Shown here piece by piece: positions 3,930-34,533 of a stretch of DNA of 64,000 bases (positions are counted from its first letter, which is position 1; each line of letters opens with the position of its first letter). The DNA is taken from the NCBI RefSeq assembly GCF_003668565.1, contig NZ_RCWJ01000001.1:248001-312000 (forward strand). The letters are read 5' to 3'. This stretch comes from Mycetocola zhadangensis (lineage in GTDB: Bacteria; Actinomycetota; Actinomycetes; Actinomycetales; Microbacteriaceae). A model generated the notes under the pieces. That model searched no databases. It had not been told where the DNA came from and worked only from the letters and a program-made list of their open reading frames with translations. A program made the translations under genes and the position numbers.

Positions 3930-4214
3930 GGGTACTTCTCCTTCACCGGCAGGTACGTGCCGGACGATCCGAGTGAATGGATTCATGCGCCGCATGCTGC
4001 ATTGCATGCTCCCGGGTGCCGGTCAGGCATACGAGAGATCATCAGTATGACAGATTCCCGCGAGGCTCGTCCTTCAATGGTGCGATTTCGCACCGGGCGC
4101 GCCGAGGTGCCATCCAGCATCCGTTTGGGAATTTCACAGTCAGGGCAACTACGATCGATTCGTGTTTGGCGCCTGAAACGTGCCCGCAACCCGACATACA
4201 CGAAGCGAGGATCC

Positions 4215-20890: not shown

Positions 20891-21274
20891 ATGCCCACCG
20901 GCAAGGTTAAGTTCTACGACGACGAGAAAGGCTTCGGCTTTATCTCGAGCGATGACGGCCAGGAAGTTTTCCTGCACGCGTCGGCTCTGCCCGCCGGTGT
21001 GACCTCGGTCAAAGCCGGCACACGACTCGAATTCGGCGTTGCCGATGGCAAGCGCGGCGTTCAGGCACTGTCCGTGCGCGTGCTCGATGCGCCCCCGAGC
21101 CTGGTCAAGATGAAGCGCAAGCCCGCTGACGACATGGCGATCATCATCGAGGACCTCGTGAAACTGCTCGACGGCCTCGGCGGAGATCTCCGCAAGGGTC
21201 GCTACCCCGACAACGCACACAGCCGGAAGGTCGCACAGCTGCTGCGCCGGGTGGCCGACGAACTGGACGCGTGA
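20891..21274 (+). CDS. Cold-shock domain protein with C-terminal extension
   Basis: 127 residues. Residues 1-66 form a cold-shock domain (TGKVKFYDDEKGFGFIS, EVFLHASAL); residues 67-127 are a helical extension (DDMAIIIEDLVKLLDGLGGDLRKGRYP) found in the actinobacterial CspB group such as Rv0871. Nucleic-acid binding is expected. It is divergent from the membrane-protein/XPB unit and lies 47 nt before the DUF3027 gene, probably in one operon. Confidence 0.9.
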   Translation: MPTGKVKFYDDEKGFGFISSDDGQEVFLHASALPAGVTSVKAGTRLEFGVADGKRGVQALSVRVLDAPPSLVKMKRKPADDMAIIIEDLVKLLDGLGGDLRKGRYPDNAHSRKVAQLLRRVADELDA

Positions 21275-21321
21275 TCGCCGCGCCACGTTGGGCCCGCCGT
21301 CTTTTCACAAGGAGCACTCCG

Positions 21322-22344
<1,023 letters not shown>

Positions 22345-26921: not shown

Positions 26922-26993
26922 GCCTCTGTAGCTCAACGGAAGAGCACCTCCGTCCTAAGGAGTTGGTTGGGGGTTCGAATCCCTCCAGGGGCA
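26922..26993 (+). tRNA. tRNA-Arg (anticodon CCT)
   Basis: A 72-nt cloverleaf: acceptor GCCTCTG pairs with CAGGGGC (one G-U), anticodon loop GTCCTAA with anticodon CCT, and the T arm GGGGG-TTCGAAT-CCCTC. It reads AGG codons. The first anticodon-stem pair looks mismatched. CCA is not encoded. Confidence 0.92.
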
Positions 26994-27098
26994 CTTTCGG
27001 TTCGCGGTGCGCGATCCCTGTCAGCATTGCTCTCGCTCACGCGCCGTCGACACGATGCCATGCAGTGCTCATTCGTTCAGACGAACGCACGCACCTGA

Positions 27099-27982: not shown

Positions 27983-30900
27983 GTGGATGTGTGGCGGCTA
28001 GACAAGAAACCAGAGACGCGCGATTCAGACATCGCTGACGTCGATACTTCGCTTGCGCGTTCAGTCACCAGTCCCACTGGTTTGAGCGTTGGCGACCCCA
28101 ATTACACGGTGGGCAACGTGGCTGACGAAACCCGAAAGCGGTGGCGCGAGCAACTCGCGACCGTCGGTGGACGGTCGCCTCTGCTGCACTTTGTGGATGA
28201 ACCACGCAACCGCATCGAGTTAAGTTCCACTCACCCGGGCGGTCTGCCGCAGTTCATCACCGGGCACTCGACCCTGCTGTCGAACCTCATTCGTGATGAG
28301 CTGGCGCTTCGCGGAGCCAAGGCTGCCGCAGACCAGATCACCGTCAAGGGTGTCGAATTGCGCACGGTACGCGGAATCGAGGCCGTGCACCTCGCGATCG
28401 GGTTGGCCCAGTGGCGTTACGGCGAGGAAGAGTTCTCGGCTCCGGTTCTGCTTCGCCCCGTCGCTATTCGCCGTTATGGTCGCGACTTTGAGCTGAAGCT
28501 CAAGGGCACTCCCTTCCTCAACCCTGAACTCGCACGCGCATTGCATGAGCAGTTCAAGATCACCCTCGACGCCGAGTCTTTTGAGGCACTCGCCGTAACC
28601 AACGGTGCGTTCAAGCCGCAGCCGGTCATCGACAGACTGCGCGGTCTGACCCAGCACCTCGAATGGTTCAGCGTCCAGCCGCGACTTGTCGTCTCCTCGT
28701 TCGCTGACATTGGCACATCGCTCGCCCGCGACGCTCGCGACCTCGATCACCCCGTTCTCAACGCCCTCGCAGGCAACCCCGGGGCTCGACGACTCGTCGA
28801 AGGACTTTTCAGCCCGGTGGATGCTGTCGGCCAGGACGACAGACCGCCGACAACAGACACGCTCCTGCTCGATGCGGACACCGAGCAGGAGAACGTCATC
28901 GCGCAGATCGCTGCGGGGCACTCCATAGTTGTCACCACACTTCCTGGCACAGGCGGAACACAAACCGTGGTCAACGCCATCGGCAGTCTTGTCTCCCAAC
29001 ACAAGCGCGTTCTCGTCGTGAGCGCTCGTCGATCGTCGCTTGATGGCATCCGTCACCGTTTTTCCAAGGTCGGGCTGCCCGGCTTCACCGTTTCGCCAGC
29101 GACGATTCGCCGCGACCTCATACAGGCCATCTCCCGCAACGAAAAGGCCGTCGCCCCTAAGGTCGCCGACGTTGACGACGCGCTCGTGCGACTGCGCAAG
29201 GTGTTGCTTGACTACCGCGGATCGCTCAGCCGTGTCGACAGCGGCCTCGGCGTCAGTGTCATTGACGCACTCCAGGCGCTGACGCGCCTCGGCAACCTGC
29301 AGGACCAGCCGACCACGACCGCGAGACTCGATTTGCCCTCGCTCGAGAAGCTCGCAGGCAACCGCGAAATCATCGCGCGCAAGCTGGCAACGGCTGCGGC
29401 GCTCGGTGAGTTCCAGTACGGTCCGGACGACTCGCCGTGGTACGGCGCACAGTTCGCCAGCACGAAGCAGGCCAAAGCGACGCACGACCTGGCGAAGAAG
29501 CTGCACCGCACAGAGCTGCCTCGCCTGCTTGAACGTGGATACGAGCTCATCGGCCAGACCCGGATGCGTGCTTTCGAGTCCATCGAAGAGCTCGGCATCT
29601 ACCTCCGTCTGCTGCTCGACATCCGTGAGACGCTCGACAAGTTCCAGCCGAGCGTGTTCGACCGCTCCCTTGGTGAACTCATCGCCGCGACGAGCGCACG
29701 CCGCGACGCGCCAAGCATGACCAGTGCGAACCGTCGGCGACTCAAGAAGCTCGCTCGCGAATACGTGCGCCCTGGCGTGCACGTCACAGACATCAACGCA
29801 GCCCTGCGTCGGATCCAGCAGCAGCGGACTCTCTGGCAGCGCTACGTCGCCGCAGGCGTGAACCCTGAGGTGCCGCTCGGCATCGCCGACGTTCAGGTTG
29901 CCTACCAGCGTGTCGTTGAAGACCTCGCGTCGCTCGACAAGCCGCTCAGCCGCACGGCCAAAGCGCAGTCGCTCGTCGGAATGCCCGTCAAGGAACTGGT
30001 CAGGCTGATGTCTGGTCTGGCTGCTGACTCGGCAGTTATGGAAAACCTTCAGGAGCGCACAACCCTCATCGCGGAACTCCGCGAAAAGGGACTGGCGCCC
30101 CTCATCACCGACCTGTCGGTACGCCACGTGCCCGAGGCACGCGTTGCCAACGAACTCGAACTCGCCTGGTGGCAGTCCGTGCTTGAGCACATGCTCACGA
30201 CAGACAAGGCGCTGCTTGGTGCAAACACGAGCGTGATCGATCGGCTCGAAGCAGACTTCCGCCTCGTCGACGAGGCTCACGCCTCGGCATCCGGCGCCCT
30301 CCTCGGCGCCCTTCTCGCAGAGAACTGGAAGATCGGTCTCGTCGACTTCCCAGACGAAGCGTCCGCGCTCAAGAAGCTGCTGCGCACCGAGAGTACGAGC
30401 CCAGCGAAACTTGAGAGCGCAGCGCCGCACCTGTCGCGCGTGCTGTCTCCGGTGTGGCTCACCTCCGCATACGAGGCGCACCTCATTCCTGAGAGCGTGC
30501 GATTCGACACGGTCTTCCTGGTTGATGCCGGAGCCACCACCCTGGCCGAGAATGCCGGCGCTATTCGACGCGCCCGCCAGGTCGTCGCGGTCGGTGACCC
30601 CGTCACCCAGAGCCCGACCCCGTTCACCGTTGCCATCGGAGCACCCGCTCCCGCGGCAGAAGCAGACGACGTCGATGCTCGCCACGCGGACTCCGCACTC
30701 GCAAGGCTCTCCGGCCTCCTGCCGACACTCACCCTCACGCGCAGCTACCGCGCCGGAGGAGAAGACCTCGCCGAACTGGTCAATCACCGGTTCTACGGTG
30801 GTGAGATCGAGTCGCTGCCCTGGGCCGGATCGTTCCTCGGCCACGGCAGCCTCACGCTCGACTATGTGCCGAACGGACACGGCATGCCCGACCCGGACAC

Positions 30901-31783
30901 CGGGGGAGTGGAAAGCGTCGACGCTGAGGTGGCTCGTGTGGTCAACCTCGTGCTCGAGCACGCGATCAACCGACCGCGCGAGTCGCTCATGGTTGTCACA
31001 GCGAGCGAGAAGCACGCCACCCGGGTTCACCAGGCCGTGATCTCCGCCTTCGCTATGCGCAGCGACCTCTCCGACTTCATCCTCAAGGAGCGCCCCGAGC
31101 CGTTCACGGTGCTCACCCTTGAGCAGTCTGTCGCCGAGAGTCGCGACCGTGTCATCTTCTCGCTCGGCTACGGCGTCACGCCGCACGGCCGGGTGCTGTC
31201 CAACTTCGGCGCACTAGCACGACCGGGCGGCGACCGCCTGCTCGCTGTCGGCATGACCCGCGCCCGCCGCTCCATGGTCATCGTTTCCTGCATCCGCCCC
31301 GAGGACATCGACACCGGCCGCATGCAGCACGGAATCGGCGCCCTCGCCGAGATCCTCAAACAGCCAGTCCAGCACGTTCCCGCTCCGCCGGCTACGGACG
31401 GCGCAGAACCAATGCTGATCGACCTGGCCGAACGTCTCTACCGGCACGGCTTGTCCGTCGAAGTGGGGTACCGGGGCAAACTCGCGCTCGTCGCGGCTCA
31501 CGAGGGCAAAGCGATCGCCGTCGAGTCAGACCCCGAGGTGAGCAGCGACTCGTTGCGCGAATCACTGCGGTTGCGCCCAGACGTTCTGCGCCGGCTCGGG
31601 TGGCACTACCTCCGCGTGCACAGCTTCGACCTGTTCAGCGACCCGGACGGAGTGGCTCGGAAGATCCTGACGATGTTGGGCGTGCCCGCTGTCGTCAGCG
31701 CGGAGGATTCCGACACAGCGAATGAAACGGATGCCATTTCCACCGGTATCGAGGAACCGGTCGATCCCAGCACCCGCGCGTAA
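27983..31783 (+). CDS. Large SF1-helicase-like protein with altered Walker A and B motifs
   Basis: 1266 residues, GTG start (a second GTG is 6 nt on). After a 300-residue N-terminal domain comes the Walker A equivalent TLPGTGGTQTVVN, in which the invariant Lys is Gly325. The Walker B position reads VFLVDAGAT (30507-30540) instead of a DEAx motif, and a long helical insertion (residues ~350-790) lies between them. A motif IV-VI-like C-terminal RecA domain remains: LTRSYRAGGEDLAELVN, VLTLEQSVAESRDRVI and GMTRARRSMVIV. A DUF559/Vsr-like endonuclease-like tail (LSVEVGYRGKLALVA ... LRRLGWHYLRVHSFDLF) ends the chain. It resembles DUF4011/Upf1-like SF1 proteins but is probably not a normal ATPase. 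Role unknown. Confidence 0.8.
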   Translation: MDVWRLDKKPETRDSDIADVDTSLARSVTSPTGLSVGDPNYTVGNVADETRKRWREQLATVGGRSPLLHFVDEPRNRIELSSTHPGGLPQFITGHSTLLSNLIRDELALRGAKAAADQITVKGVELRTVRGIEAVHLAIGLAQWRYGEEEFSAPVLLRPVAIRRYGRDFELKLKGTPFLNPELARALHEQFKITLDAESFEALAVTNGAFKPQPVIDRLRGLTQHLEWFSVQPRLVVSSFADIGTSLARDARDLDHPVLNALAGNPGARRLVEGLFSPVDAVGQDDRPPTTDTLLLDADTEQENVIAQIAAGHSIVVTTLPGTGGTQTVVNAIGSLVSQHKRVLVVSARRSSLDGIRHRFSKVGLPGFTVSPATIRRDLIQAISRNEKAVAPKVADVDDALVRLRKVLLDYRGSLSRVDSGLGVSVIDALQALTRLGNLQDQPTTTARLDLPSLEKLAGNREIIARKLATAAALGEFQYGPDDSPWYGAQFASTKQAKATHDLAKKLHRTELPRLLERGYELIGQTRMRAFESIEELGIYLRLLLDIRETLDKFQPSVFDRSLGELIAATSARRDAPSMTSANRRRLKKLAREYVRPGVHVTDINAALRRIQQQRTLWQRYVAAGVNPEVPLGIADVQVAYQRVVEDLASLDKPLSRTAKAQSLVGMPVKELVRLMSGLAADSAVMENLQERTTLIAELREKGLAPLITDLSVRHVPEARVANELELAWWQSVLEHMLTTDKALLGANTSVIDRLEADFRLVDEAHASASGALLGALLAENWKIGLVDFPDEASALKKLLRTESTSPAKLESAAPHLSRVLSPVWLTSAYEAHLIPESVRFDTVFLVDAGATTLAENAGAIRRARQVVAVGDPVTQSPTPFTVAIGAPAPAAEADDVDARHADSALARLSGLLPTLTLTRSYRAGGEDLAELVNHRFYGGEIESLPWAGSFLGHGSLTLDYVPNGHGMPDPDTGGVESVDAEVARVVNLVLEHAINRPRESLMVVTASEKHATRVHQAVISAFAMRSDLSDFILKERPEPFTVLTLEQSVAESRDRVIFSLGYGVTPHGRVLSNFGALARPGGDRLLAVGMTRARRSMVIVSCIRPEDIDTGRMQHGIGALAEILKQPVQHVPAPPATDGAEPMLIDLAERLYRHGLSVEVGYRGKLALVAAHEGKAIAVESDPEVSSDSLRESLRLRPDVLRRLGWHYLRVHSFDLFSDPDGVARKILTMLGVPAVVSAEDSDTANETDAISTGIEEPVDPSTRA

Positions 31784-32134: not shown

Positions 32135-32539
32135 TTATTGCTTAAGGCTGTTTCTCGCCAGCAGGTCGCGGATCTCGGTGAGCACATCGATCTCGGTGAC
32201 CGGAGCCTCCTCCTCGACGATGCCTGCCTTGCGCTTCGCCTCTGCGTGCTTCTTCATCGTGTTGATAGGAAGGACGAAGACGAAGTAGACGACAGCGGCG
32301 ACGATGAGGAACGTGATGACCGCCCCGAGCACGGCCCCGAGCTTGATCTCAGCGTCACCGACCGGAATGTCGAGAGCATTCTTGAGGTCGTCCGCCTGGA
32401 ACAACGCTCCGATCAACGGGTTGAAGACGTTCTCCACGATCGAGTTCACGACAGCGGTGAACGCGGCGCCAACGACCACCGCGACGGCAAGGTCGATGAC
32501 GTTGCCCCGCATGATGAAGTCTTTGAATCCCTTGAGCAT
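32135..32539 (-). CDS. mscL: Large-conductance mechanosensitive channel
   Basis: 134 residues, family length. The N-terminal helix (MLKGFKDFIMRGNVIDLAVAVVVGAAF) and TM1 are classic MscL, with TM2 at about 68-94 (ITFLIVAAVVYFVFVLPINTM) and a C-terminal helix (TEIDVLTEIRDLLA). It releases osmolytes on hypo-osmotic shock. AAGGGGGAACC precedes the ATG. It is last in the fcl-fmdB-mscL unit. Confidence 0.96.
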   Translation of the reverse strand: MLKGFKDFIMRGNVIDLAVAVVVGAAFTAVVNSIVENVFNPLIGALFQADDLKNALDIPVGDAEIKLGAVLGAVITFLIVAAVVYFVFVLPINTMKKHAEAKRKAGIVEEEAPVTEIDVLTEIRDLLARNSLKQ

Positions 32540-32554: not shown

Positions 32555-32890
32555 CTATGACGCAGCGGCGCCGGTCGACGTGGCCGTCGACGTGCTGGAT
32601 GATGACGATGATGACGATGACGATGACGATGATGATGATGATGGCGTCGAGGCCGTTTTGTCGCCGGATGGCTTCGAGTCCTTCTTCGTCGAAGCTGAAG
32701 AGGAGTTCGCTGCGGCGCGAGAGTCGTTGCGGTAGAACCCTGAGCCGTTGAACGAAACGCCAACGGCGCTATACAGCTTGCGGAGTTTGCCGCTGCATTC
32801 GGGGCACTCGGTAAGCGAGTCGTCGGTGAACGACTGCTGGATATCGAAAGCTGTCGCGCAGATAGTGCATTTGTATGAGTACGTGGGCAT
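32555..32890 (-). CDS. FmdB-family zinc-ribbon protein with poly-Ser tail
   Basis: 111 residues. The zinc ribbon MPTYSYKCTICATAFDI ... LTECPECSGKL has two CxxC pairs (C8/C11 and C30/C33 region), as in FmdB/CxxC_CXXC_SSSS proteins. Residues ~84-101 are an uninterrupted Ser run encoded by a GAY-like trinucleotide repeat. Function is unknown, perhaps regulatory. AGGAATTTTGG precedes the ATG. It sits 15 nt upstream of mscL. Confidence 0.88.
   Translation of the reverse strand: MPTYSYKCTICATAFDIQQSFTDDSLTECPECSGKLRKLYSAVGVSFNGSGFYRNDSRAAANSSSASTKKDSKPSGDKTASTPSSSSSSSSSSSSSSSSTSTATSTGAAAS
32598..32645. repeat. (GAY)n trinucleotide repeat coding for poly-Ser on the minus strand
   Basis: Sixteen-odd GAT/GAC units on the plus strand read as TCA/TCG Ser codons in the minus-strand fmdB-like gene. 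It resembles the Asp-coding array at 22064-22330 in another strand and frame. Confidence 0.8.
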
Positions 32891-32944: not shown

Positions 32945-33523
32945 TTAAAACTCGAGGATCTGAGACGGGGTGACGACACCGTTCACCCGTTGGTCATGCT
33001 TTTCGTGCGGCACGTCTGGCTGAACCTCGGTGTCGAAGACTATGGCGTAAACCGGAGGGCATTTCTCCATCGATCCGAGGGTCTTATCGAAGAACCCACG
33101 GCCCCATCCCATGCGCATTCCATCGGGGCTGACGGCCGCTGCCGGAACGAGGATCAGATCCACCTCGTTGATGGCGATCGGTCCGAGCGGCTCACCGACG
33201 GGCTCGGGCATTCCAAAGAGCCCTTCGACCTCGGAGCCGGATTCTCCGACTGTCCAGTCAAGCAGGCCGTCTTCCCGACTAATCGGAAAGAGAACACGGA
33301 TGTTCTCGGCCAGCGCCCAGTTCACAAACGGCCGTGTGTTCGGTTCGTTCGGAGACGAAAGGTAGCAGGCGACGCTCGATGCGCTCAGGCCGGTCACGAG
33401 GGCGACCAGGTTGTTCGTGATGCCGATCGTCGCTTTTTCGCGTTCCGAGGCGGTCAGGTTCTGGCGCCGCTCGCGCAGCTCGGCTCGGAGCGCGCGTTTT
33501 TGATGGTCCACCTGGCTGGGCAT
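32945..33523 (-). CDS. 5-formyltetrahydrofolate cyclo-ligase
   Basis: 192 residues. KRALRAELRERRQNL carries the basic N-terminal substrate-binding segment, and the conserved MRMGWGRGFFDKTL near the C-terminus is the ATP/phosphate-binding signature (G-W-G-x-G-F-F-D). It converts 5-formyl-THF to 5,10-methenyl-THF with ATP. A TACAAT -10 box lies 6 nt before the ATG, so transcription is probably leaderless and divergent from galU. It leads the unit with fmdB and mscL. Confidence 0.93.
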   Translation of the reverse strand: MPSQVDHQKRALRAELRERRQNLTASEREKATIGITNNLVALVTGLSASSVACYLSSPNEPNTRPFVNWALAENIRVLFPISREDGLLDWTVGESGSEVEGLFGMPEPVGEPLGPIAINEVDLILVPAAAVSPDGMRMGWGRGFFDKTLGSMEKCPPVYAIVFDTEVQPDVPHEKHDQRVNGVVTPSQILEF

Positions 33524-33627: not shown

Positions 33628-33633
33628 TACGCT
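33628..33633 (+). promoter_or_regulatory. Leaderless -10 box of galU
   Basis: TACGCT with a 6-nt spacer (GGATCC) to the galU ATG at 33640; no Shine-Dalgarno sequence is present. Confidence 0.65.
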
Positions 33634-33639
33634 GGATCC

Positions 33640-34533
33640 ATGTCTCAGCCCGTACGCAAAGTCGTTATTCCCGCCGCAGGTCTTGGTACCCGGTTCCTCC
33701 CGGCGACAAAGGCACTTCCAAAAGAGATGCTTCCCGTCGTCGACAAGCCGGCAATCCAGTACGTCGTCGAAGAGGCCGTGAGCGCCGGACTCAACGATGT
33801 TTTGATGATCATCGGGCGAAACAAGAACGCCCTGGCCAACCACTTCGACCGGGTGACCGAGCTTGAGCTCGCGCTTGAGGAGAAGGGCGACGAGAACCGG
33901 CTTCACCGGGTGGTTGAGTCGAGCGAACTTGCTGACATCCACTTCCTGCGCCAGGGCGACCCCAAGGGACTCGGCCACGCTGTGCTTCGCGCGCGCCGCC
34001 ACGTGGGCAACGAACCGTTCGCCGTTCTGCTCGGTGACGACCTGATCGACGCCCGCGACCCGCTCCTGACGACCATGATCCAGGAGCAGGAGAGCCGCCA
34101 GGCCACGATCATCGCCCTGATGGAGGTCGACCCCGCGACCATCTCGATGTACGGCTGCGCGGCCGTCGAGGCCACAGACAACCCCGACGTCGTCAAGGTC
34201 ACCGACCTGGTCGAAAAGCCAGCCCCCGAAGACGCTCCGTCGAACCTCGCCATCATCGGCCGATACGTCCTCCGCCCGGAAATCTTTGACGTCCTGGAGA
34301 AGACAGAGCCAGGCAAGGGCGGCGAAATTCAGTTGACGGATGCCATGCAGGTGCTGGCAGCGGACGACACGATCGCAGGCGGCGTGTACGGAGTTGTCTT
34401 CCGTGGTCGTCGCTACGACACGGGTGACCGCCTCGACTACATCAAGGCCATCATCCAGCTCGCGTCAGACCGTGAGGACCTGGGACTCGAGCTCAAGCCG
34501 TGGATCAAGGAATTCGCCGCAAAGCTCGACTAG
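33640..34533 (+). CDS. galU: UTP-glucose-1-phosphate uridylyltransferase
   Basis: 297 residues. The nucleotidyltransferase signature AAGLGTRFLPATKALPKEML, the UTP/sugar-phosphate site VDKPAIQYVVEEA and the metal-binding VLLGDDLI are intact, with GRRYDTGDRLDYIKA near the end. It makes UDP-glucose for envelope polysaccharides and glycolipids. ATG at 33640 is chosen because the -10 box lies 6 nt upstream and homologous sequence begins at SQPVRKVVIPAAG. It starts the cluster with the GNAT and sepX genes. Confidence 0.95.
   Translation: MSQPVRKVVIPAAGLGTRFLPATKALPKEMLPVVDKPAIQYVVEEAVSAGLNDVLMIIGRNKNALANHFDRVTELELALEEKGDENRLHRVVESSELADIHFLRQGDPKGLGHAVLRARRHVGNEPFAVLLGDDLIDARDPLLTTMIQEQESRQATIIALMEVDPATISMYGCAAVEATDNPDVVKVTDLVEKPAPEDAPSNLAIIGRYVLRPEIFDVLEKTEPGKGGEIQLTDAMQVLAADDTIAGGVYGVVFRGRRYDTGDRLDYIKAIIQLASDREDLGLELKPWIKEFAAKLD

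Follow-up and report, generated by a model that had tools for sequence, protein, structure and literature searches.

A conserved gene of Mycetocola zhadangensis encodes a putative pseudo-helicase without the Walker A lysine

The window analyzed in this study is a stretch of 64,000 nucleotides from M. zhadangensis, and positions 27983 to 31783 of its plus strand carry a pseudo-helicase/pseudo-nuclease gene of 1,266 amino acids, for which a single full-length copy was found in the genome. As the original prediction had claimed, the frame is intact and stays open for 1,266 codons. The conserved downstream neighbours, assigned by Pfam and synteny, are mscL (32135 to 32539, minus strand; Pfam MscL), a zinc-ribbon gene that we take to be of the FmdB type (32555 to 32890, minus strand; Zn_ribbon_8), the gene of a 5-formyltetrahydrofolate cyclo-ligase (32945 to 33523, minus strand), and a nucleotidyl transferase gene, presumably galU-like (33628 to 34533, plus strand, start set by eye; NTP_transferase).

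The protein opens with a DUF4011-like region (residues 50–290, 28130 to 28852), whose outer limits were set by eye from alignment and model; Pfam DUF4011 (PF13195) scored 21.7 bits at residues 130–185, just under the gathering score of 22.2. The first RecA-like domain, 1A (residues 296–440, 28868 to 29302), and the second, 2A, with remnants of motifs II to VI (residues 826–1112, 30458 to 31318), have approximate limits and are separated in the model by a mainly helical middle insertion (residues 441–825, 29303 to 30457). A Vsr/MTES_1575-like nuclease domain, with a Pfam match below the cut-off, occupies residues 1140–1236 (31400 to 31690), and all of these features lie on the plus strand. Structure prediction had been proposed as a check, and the AlphaFold2 model returned a confident fold of the UPF1/IGHMBP2/Dna2 type (pLDDT 92), so the helicase fold is predicted to be still made. 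With two RecA-like domains of this type, the protein belongs to SF1B (UPF1-like) by descent. RecC was not among the matches listed in the fold searches, which excludes nothing, and an AddAB chain was only a weak Foldseek match of the Bifidobacterium-type model (E 9.5e-4).

The Walker A equivalent LPGTGGTQ is located at residues 320–327 (28940 to 28963, plus strand), and the codon at 28955–28957 encodes Gly325 in place of the lysine, as originally described. The family profile pairs this segment with PPGTGKTT of IGHMBP2, so the segment does occupy the position of Walker A; a shifted P-loop was ruled out, since a search through the whole window protein found no GK(S/T). Ser326 is Thr in the window protein, a residue that an ordinary Walker A accepts too, and one of these two residues occupies the position at 54%. 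The Walker B equivalent VFLVDAGAT lies at residues 844–852 (30512 to 30538, plus strand), where intact relatives have VVFDEASQV. A gap-free alignment to FDVVVFDEASQ of the intact relatives places the Walker B Asp at Val847 and the catalytic Glu at Asp848. The DE pair is thus gone, as had been noticed, but the claim that no acidic residue is left was wrong, because Asp848 remains. The motif III Gln is replaced by Thr875. The C-terminal motifs TLTRSYR and GMTRARR were both found, in agreement with the original prediction; within the motif VI region GDRLLAVGMTRARRS (residues 1083–1097, 31229 to 31273, plus strand; alignment to intact forms), Ala stands in place of the Asn1088 seen in intact forms, and Arg1093 and Arg1095 are retained. 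Of the features expected of an active SF1B helicase, the Walker A GK(S/T), the Walker B Asp-Glu and the motif III Gln are therefore missing, and the motif VI arginines are present. When all ATP motifs were taken together by position, this 20-column set was kept at 47%, hardly lower than the average of 53%, and the reduced conservation was confined to the catalytic subset of columns.

These losses bear on whether the protein could be a live ATPase with an unusual P-loop, the lysine being supplied from elsewhere in the chain. In favour of such an enzyme are Lys341-Arg342, a basic pair that comes after the loop, and the two retained motif VI arginines. However, the same GKR also occurs in an intact relative (L028) whose Walker A Lys is normal, and the window protein has in addition lost the catalytic Glu and the motif III Gln; we therefore hold a live ATPase to be very improbable.

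The endonuclease-like tail noticed earlier does match MTES_1575 (PF18741), though below threshold, at 29.7 bits against a cut-off of 38.2; three intact relatives scored 71.6–76.1 bits. Asp1168 and Glu1181, an acidic pair conserved among the intact forms, probably serve in catalysis, and half of the pair is lost in the window protein: Asp1168 is Ala, and Glu1181 and Asp1183 are retained. Averaged over the families without the Walker A Lys, Asp1168 was kept at 18%. Of the suggestion that a pseudo-helicase serves as a nuclease scaffold, the pseudo-helicase part is supported, and the nuclease part is weaker, because the tail has lost Asp1168, although it keeps Glu1181 and Asp1183.

The altered motif is widely shared. 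The Walker A Lys was present in 0 of 120 close relatives and 0 of 80 named Microbacteriaceae loci, and PGTGGTQ was encoded in 194 of 299 Microbacteriaceae genomes. Residue 325 is Gly in most members of the family, so Gly325 is not a sequence error. Similar sequences in other Microbacteriaceae, which the original prediction had mentioned, were confirmed by near full-length matches in all 24 other family genomes of the relatives sample. The rough dN/dS was 0.03–0.13. These sequences show strong purifying selection on the frame, and the proposed pseudo-helicase under coding constraint is supported by the conserved altered motif, the low dN/dS, the order-wide retention and the confident helicase fold. 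A sequence error or decaying pseudogene has nothing in its favour beyond the loss itself; the frames are intact, and the gene is also retained in genomes of 0.8–0.93 Mb. We rejected this explanation on conservation, dN/dS and fold, and give it next to no weight. Intact homologues combined with a sequence error had been named as the case against the original prediction: homologues of this sort do occur, both beyond the order and, within it, in two families, but there is no sequence error.

In these two families, which include Angustibacter and Pedococcus, the Lys and the Asp-Glu are mostly kept at the same locus, and so do six relatives outside the order. The Lys was absent in the 16 other families examined; in families other than Microbacteriaceae and Bifidobacteriaceae, its status was read from one to seven loci each, with two families (f80 and f81) left out. 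A pseudohelicase combines clear helicase ancestry with lost catalytic residues, and both were found here, as intact positional orthologues and as lost catalytic columns. In the gene tree, 49 rows without the Lys fell on one side of a branch, with three changes in all. This tree was built without L029 and L191, whose frames are truncated, and L183, a full frame left out without good reason; none of these three has the Lys. A tree of RpoB from 30 genomes gave three changes if gains were allowed and at least four with losses only, and it grouped f15 and f16, which lack the Lys, with the intact f5 and f17 (SH-aLRT 96). The gene tree rejected this grouping, with a p-AU of 2.6e-6 (27 rows) and of 3.4e-5 without the motif columns. 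The two trees disagree, and any count of the losses is provisional.

We also considered that the protein may be a nucleotide sensor, whose pocket binds ATP or another nucleotide without hydrolysis and thereby switches the conformation of the protein. Gln302, Gly322, Thr326, Arg923, Arg1093 and Arg1095 of the pocket are still in the window protein, and the Microbacteriaceae loop mostly keeps PGTG-TQ, with Gly at residue 325 in most members. Since several pocket residues remain in this family, nucleotide binding without hydrolysis would still be possible there. In seven families (f3, f4, f9, f10, f12, f14 and f82), however, the gene has been kept with little of its P-loop intact, and in Bifidobacterium nothing of the P-loop survives. 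The neighbours were absent at all three loci of f12; the other P-loop-erased families are mostly at the common locus. The order-wide role is therefore likely independent of the P-loop, and we consider a sensor unlikely.

The profile search found the family in 247 of the 248 sampled genomes of the order, which includes Bifidobacterium and Microbacteriaceae; one genome (G435) had no match and another (G377) only a weak one. Across the order, the gene lies mostly beside the same neighbours. This retention marks the gene as important and says nothing on what its role is. In 13 of 14 genomes tried, long frames separated by a few kb carry a pair of RecB-type nuclease domains; the pair is a possible partner of the protein and discriminates between no hypotheses.

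The best family matches were the NCBIfam anti-phage protein ProA (NF058533, 300.9 bits) and PADLOC PDC-S37 (E 4.3e-94, in two stretches, the best at 727–1342 of 1550, from a table without a cut-off), and with intact relatives the ProA score rises to about 800 bits. These matches raise the question of whether the protein continues to serve against phages in the manner of ProA, Hhe and PDC-S37, working without its own ATPase, for example through a partner. Upstream frames at related loci were drawn from a larger set spanning eleven loci; ten large ones, from eight named loci, were compared with PADLOC, and Pfam was searched with nine of the ten and one further frame. One of the ten matched the defence protein IetA (L064, E 7e-20). 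One (L072) matched a CARF model in PADLOC and is a LuxR-type regulator by Pfam, and eight matched no PADLOC model; a defence island was therefore rejected, the frames tested other than the IetA match showing no defence system. The window protein also falls far short of the curated cut-offs of ProA (1500 bits) and Hhe (NF042953; 147.6 bits against 2000), second, longer frames matching the query (1,999–2,167 aa) occurred in only 5 of 40 genomes, and a defence gene would not be expected to be kept almost everywhere and mostly at one locus. A present anti-phage role thus seems improbable to us.

In this study, we believe, with a probability of roughly 0.6, that the protein descended from an active helicase-nuclease, lost catalysis and now fills a core role as a scaffold that holds nucleic acid independently of ATP. 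The ancestor was likely a DUF4011 helicase-nuclease akin to anti-phage ProA/Hhe; in its descendant, residues that would serve ATP hydrolysis and one that would serve DNA cutting are replaced. ATP hydrolysis, unwinding and cutting by the MTES_1575 domain would then be absent, and the retained fold might, with less support, grip single-stranded or branched nucleic acid. The held nucleic acid, or a partner, may be presented to another machine, as in RecC, AddB and Deinococcus PriA. More speculatively, and with considerable doubt, a phage-defence-type helicase-nuclease could have become, in this order of Actinomycetota, a core housekeeping protein with both activities dead, a counterpart of RecC that arose independently and holds or scans nucleic acid for replication, repair or transcription, its ATPase having been repeatedly discarded in lineages that first kept it. 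This gene of about 3.8 kb is often called "helicase" or "AAA family ATPase" in databases, and most families examined lack the implied residues. If our reading is true, a defence-type enzyme was made a core gene through loss of activity. Because intact and dead versions share a chromosomal locus in related families, an ATP-free role of a helicase fold is directly testable here. A literature search of open-licence papers listed no recognizable report of actinobacterial proteins stripped in this way.

The DUF4011 helicase-nucleases ProA, Hhe and PDC-S37 share with the window protein the order of a DUF4011-like region, an SF1 helicase and an MTES_1575 nuclease. In three intact relatives that were scanned, AAA_11, AAA_12, DUF4011 (23.4–29.0 bits) and MTES_1575 were all above the Pfam cut-offs. 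In contrast, the window protein has 1,266 aa against models of 1,797–1,903, its catalytic residues are replaced, and its family is near-universal at a mostly fixed locus. It also differs from UPF1/IGHMBP2/Dna2-type SF1B helicases in its replaced Walker A Lys, Walker B Asp-Glu and motif III Gln. In Pseudomonas aeruginosa, according to excerpts of one report, a conserved DUF4011 gene adjoins cDHS1 and is core in its group (PMC10250203), as the window gene is in its order; no defence hotspot was evident at the window locus among the few frames tested. Passages from a study of the Deinococcus PriA pseudohelicase describe a Walker A Lys replaced phylum-wide in a gene that is kept, a protein that still binds DNA, and evidence for contact with DnaB (PMC4504706). 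PriA is of another helicase family and its Lys became Arg; in both cases, the Lys was lost across a large clade and the gene was kept. The texts consulted for RecC and AddB describe an SF1 helicase fold that has lost most or all of its motifs and, for RecC, a nuclease fold likewise devoid of catalytic features (PMC4824097, PMC1185551). No sequence relation to them was found, and the likely ancestor of the window protein is a DUF4011 SF1B form. RecC and AddB belong to complexes that process DNA ends and read Chi; the window protein is not known to act in a complex or at a Chi-like site. As far as those texts go, the window protein resembles both in its inactivated SF1 helicase fold, and RecC in its inactivated nuclease fold too.

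The pseudo-helicase gene (27983-31783, forward strand) was one open frame of 1,266 codons, intact throughout as the original prediction had it, and was the only full-length copy found in the window's genome (99.99% complete). A 988-aa antisense frame (28220-31186, reverse strand) was open inside it; long antisense frames also occurred in other members, and codon usage seems enough to explain them. In the family profile alignment, the Walker A equivalent LPGTGGTQ (residues 320-327) was paired with PPGTGKTT of IGHMBP2, and motif VI with VTRARR, placing Gly325 (codon 28955-28957) opposite the Walker A Lys, as proposed. The Walker B equivalent was VFLVDAGAT (residues 844-852). FDTVFLVDAGA in the window protein corresponded to FDVVVFDEASQ in intact relatives, which carry the Lys and the Asp-Glu pair; Asp847 was changed to Val and Glu848 to Asp. 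The claim that no acidic Walker B is left was half right: the Asp-Glu pair is gone, but one Asp (Asp848) remains.

The altered motif was conserved in Microbacteriaceae, as shown by the alignment of homologues that the prediction had proposed as a check. PGTGGTQ was present in 118/120 close relatives and Lys in 0/120; at named family loci, the counts were 71/80 and 0/80. In a text search, a GG pattern at Walker A turned up in 120 of 121 close proteins, counting that of the window. Residue 325 was Ala, Ser, Leu, Arg, Val or Tyr in some members and Lys in none aligned. PGTGGTQ was encoded, with varying codons, in 194 of 299 family genomes (peptide matches anywhere in the genome), and a reversed control pattern in 3/299. 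The similar family sequences that the prediction mentioned were found as near-full-length matches in 25/25 family genomes of the relatives sample, including the window's own. Seven relatives compared pairwise with the window gene gave Nei-Gojobori dN/dS of 0.028-0.126, in agreement with the supposed coding constraint, although these values are rough because dS exceeded 1 in six of the seven pairs; two of the relatives, loci L006 and L062, gave identical values. Five other pairs gave 0.014-0.168. The gene was also retained (1,175 aa) in a family genome of 927,303 bp (G019; loci L023/L214).

With a 15-row profile, matches were obtained in 247 of the 248 genomes that represent the order in the sample. 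In a phylum sample of 296 genomes, with at most two candidates scored per genome, 95 had any match, mostly partial, and six genomes outside the order had full-length relatives. The Lys survey of other families of the order covered 45 loci (44 fetched stretches and L029), leaving out the profile-matched families f80 and f81. Lys was present in 7/45, all from families f5 or f17, with GKS or GKT, DEAS and mostly NVAxTRAR as motif VI; the other 38 loci lacked it, including two from f17. Outside the order, 6/6 loci had Lys. Thus, homologues with intact Lys and DEAS do exist, which the prediction had counted against itself, but the Gly is conserved in most Microbacteriaceae, so it is not a sequence error. 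One f5 protein was 99.9% identical to an Angustibacter-named protein, and one f17 protein 93% identical to a Pedococcus-named one. Among 119 aligned f5/f17-like proteins, 114 had GKSQ, one was gapped there, and four (P0134, P0137, P0181 and P0217) had Thr, Thr, Arg or Ala, while the Asp-Glu pair was kept in 119/119. These four are apparently recent, separate losses, and they indicate that Lys can go while the rest of the site stays intact. Named relatives of one f4 protein were from Bifidobacterium and Bombiscardovia and were called "helicase" by NCBI. Bifidobacterium-type proteins had Lys at 325 in 0/120, and no GxxxxGK(S/T) was found anywhere in these 120; Bifidobacterium members are labelled "helicase" in databases despite having no P-loop left.

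The residues lost were compared in a 172-protein alignment, using 481 columns in which the order's 38 intact forms agree at 90% or more. The 17 Lys-less families kept 53% of these columns on average, each family weighted once (55% when the four Lys-less f5/f17-like proteins were counted as an extra group). Lys325 was kept in 0 of 17 families, and Glu848, Ser850, Gln851 and Gln875 in 3-8%. These five columns, chosen after the conservation table was seen, averaged 4%, and 0/100,000 random five-column sets were as low. Ser326 was seldom still Ser, yet was Ser or Thr at 54%. A wider 20-column ATP-motif set was 47% kept, nothing unusual, because shape residues stay (Gly322 89%, Gly871 92%, Asp872 94%, Arg1095 91%). 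In the nuclease domain, Asp1168 was kept at 18%, Glu1181 at 23% and Asp1183 at 100%.

The downstream neighbours mscL, fmdB, 5-FTHF cyclo-ligase, galU and rimJ were found at 70-74 of 80 named family loci, and the window copies have Pfam matches. In other families, 38 of 44 fetched stretches, intact and dead alike, carried one or more of mscL, fmdB, cyclo-ligase and galU; loci L183, L184, L185, L191, L204 and L205 lacked them, as did 6/6 fetched loci outside the order. The shared setting points to a single, vertically inherited gene whose ancestor was active. Upstream, a tRNA-Arg (CCT) lies about 1 kb away (26922-26994); it was found 0.3-4.4 kb upstream, on either strand, in 4 of 25 named family loci scanned and was absent from the 8-kb upstream flank of the other 21. 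The downstream side is fixed, whereas upstream the gene may adjoin a segment that varies in size. The frames tested in relatives' upstream flanks gave little defence signal. Elsewhere in the window, a 357-aa frame (21271-22344) ends in long aspartate runs (DDDDESDDDD...), and an msiK RNA element (3932-3988, reverse strand) scored 58.1 bits against a gathering score of 33.

The 64-row gene tree required three changes of Lys state: one large Lys-less group (49 rows) and two further losses inside f17. The RpoB tree groups f15 and f16 with f5 and f17, a grouping that the gene tree rejects. Both trees carry warnings for long branches, and the gene trees for odd composition as well; hence one early loss with later ones and many parallel losses are both possible.

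Pfam gave sub-threshold DUF4011 and MTES_1575 nuclease matches and weak AAA_11 and AAA_12 matches for the window protein, whereas all four were above cut-off in three intact relatives (proteins P0168 and P0122, locus L206). One Bifidobacterium member scanned, P0247, matched MTES_1575 only. According to PMC3710099, MTES_1575 is a Vsr-type nuclease domain known from a Microbacterium testaceum protein. The window protein scored 300.9 bits for NCBIfam anti-phage ProA and 147.6 for Hhe, both far under cut-off, and E 4.3e-94 for PADLOC PDC-S37; the same three intact relatives scored about 800 bits for ProA.

In families whose P-loop is erased the gene persists, in most cases still at the shared locus and even in 0.8-0.9 Mb genomes. 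Therefore, the order-wide role likely needs no ATP, and the nuclease is likely dispensable in most lineages too. We believe, with a probability of about 0.6, that the window protein is a nucleic-acid-binding scaffold. Of 14 genomes tried, 13 carry two RecB-type nuclease domains, encoded by long frames that lie within a few kb of each other. This shows that a partner for end processing is available, and nothing beyond that. The model of P0346, a Bifidobacterium-type protein, had weaker fold matches to HelD, which binds RNA polymerase, and to Schlafen proteins, and these might be leads to a role outside DNA repair.

Pseudohelicases as such are already known; our searches of the open-licence literature found no report of a near-universal, doubly stripped DUF4011-type helicase-nuclease across a whole order. 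Among the best precedents for the scaffold, AddB and RecC have inactivated helicase domains that PMC4824097 describes as co-opted ssDNA scanners. RecC also has an inactivated nuclease domain, which according to PMC1185551 makes a hoop for ssDNA. Deinococcus PriA is a further precedent as an ATPase-free DNA binder: PMC4504706 reports that DNA binding is kept, with evidence of DnaB contact, without ATPase.
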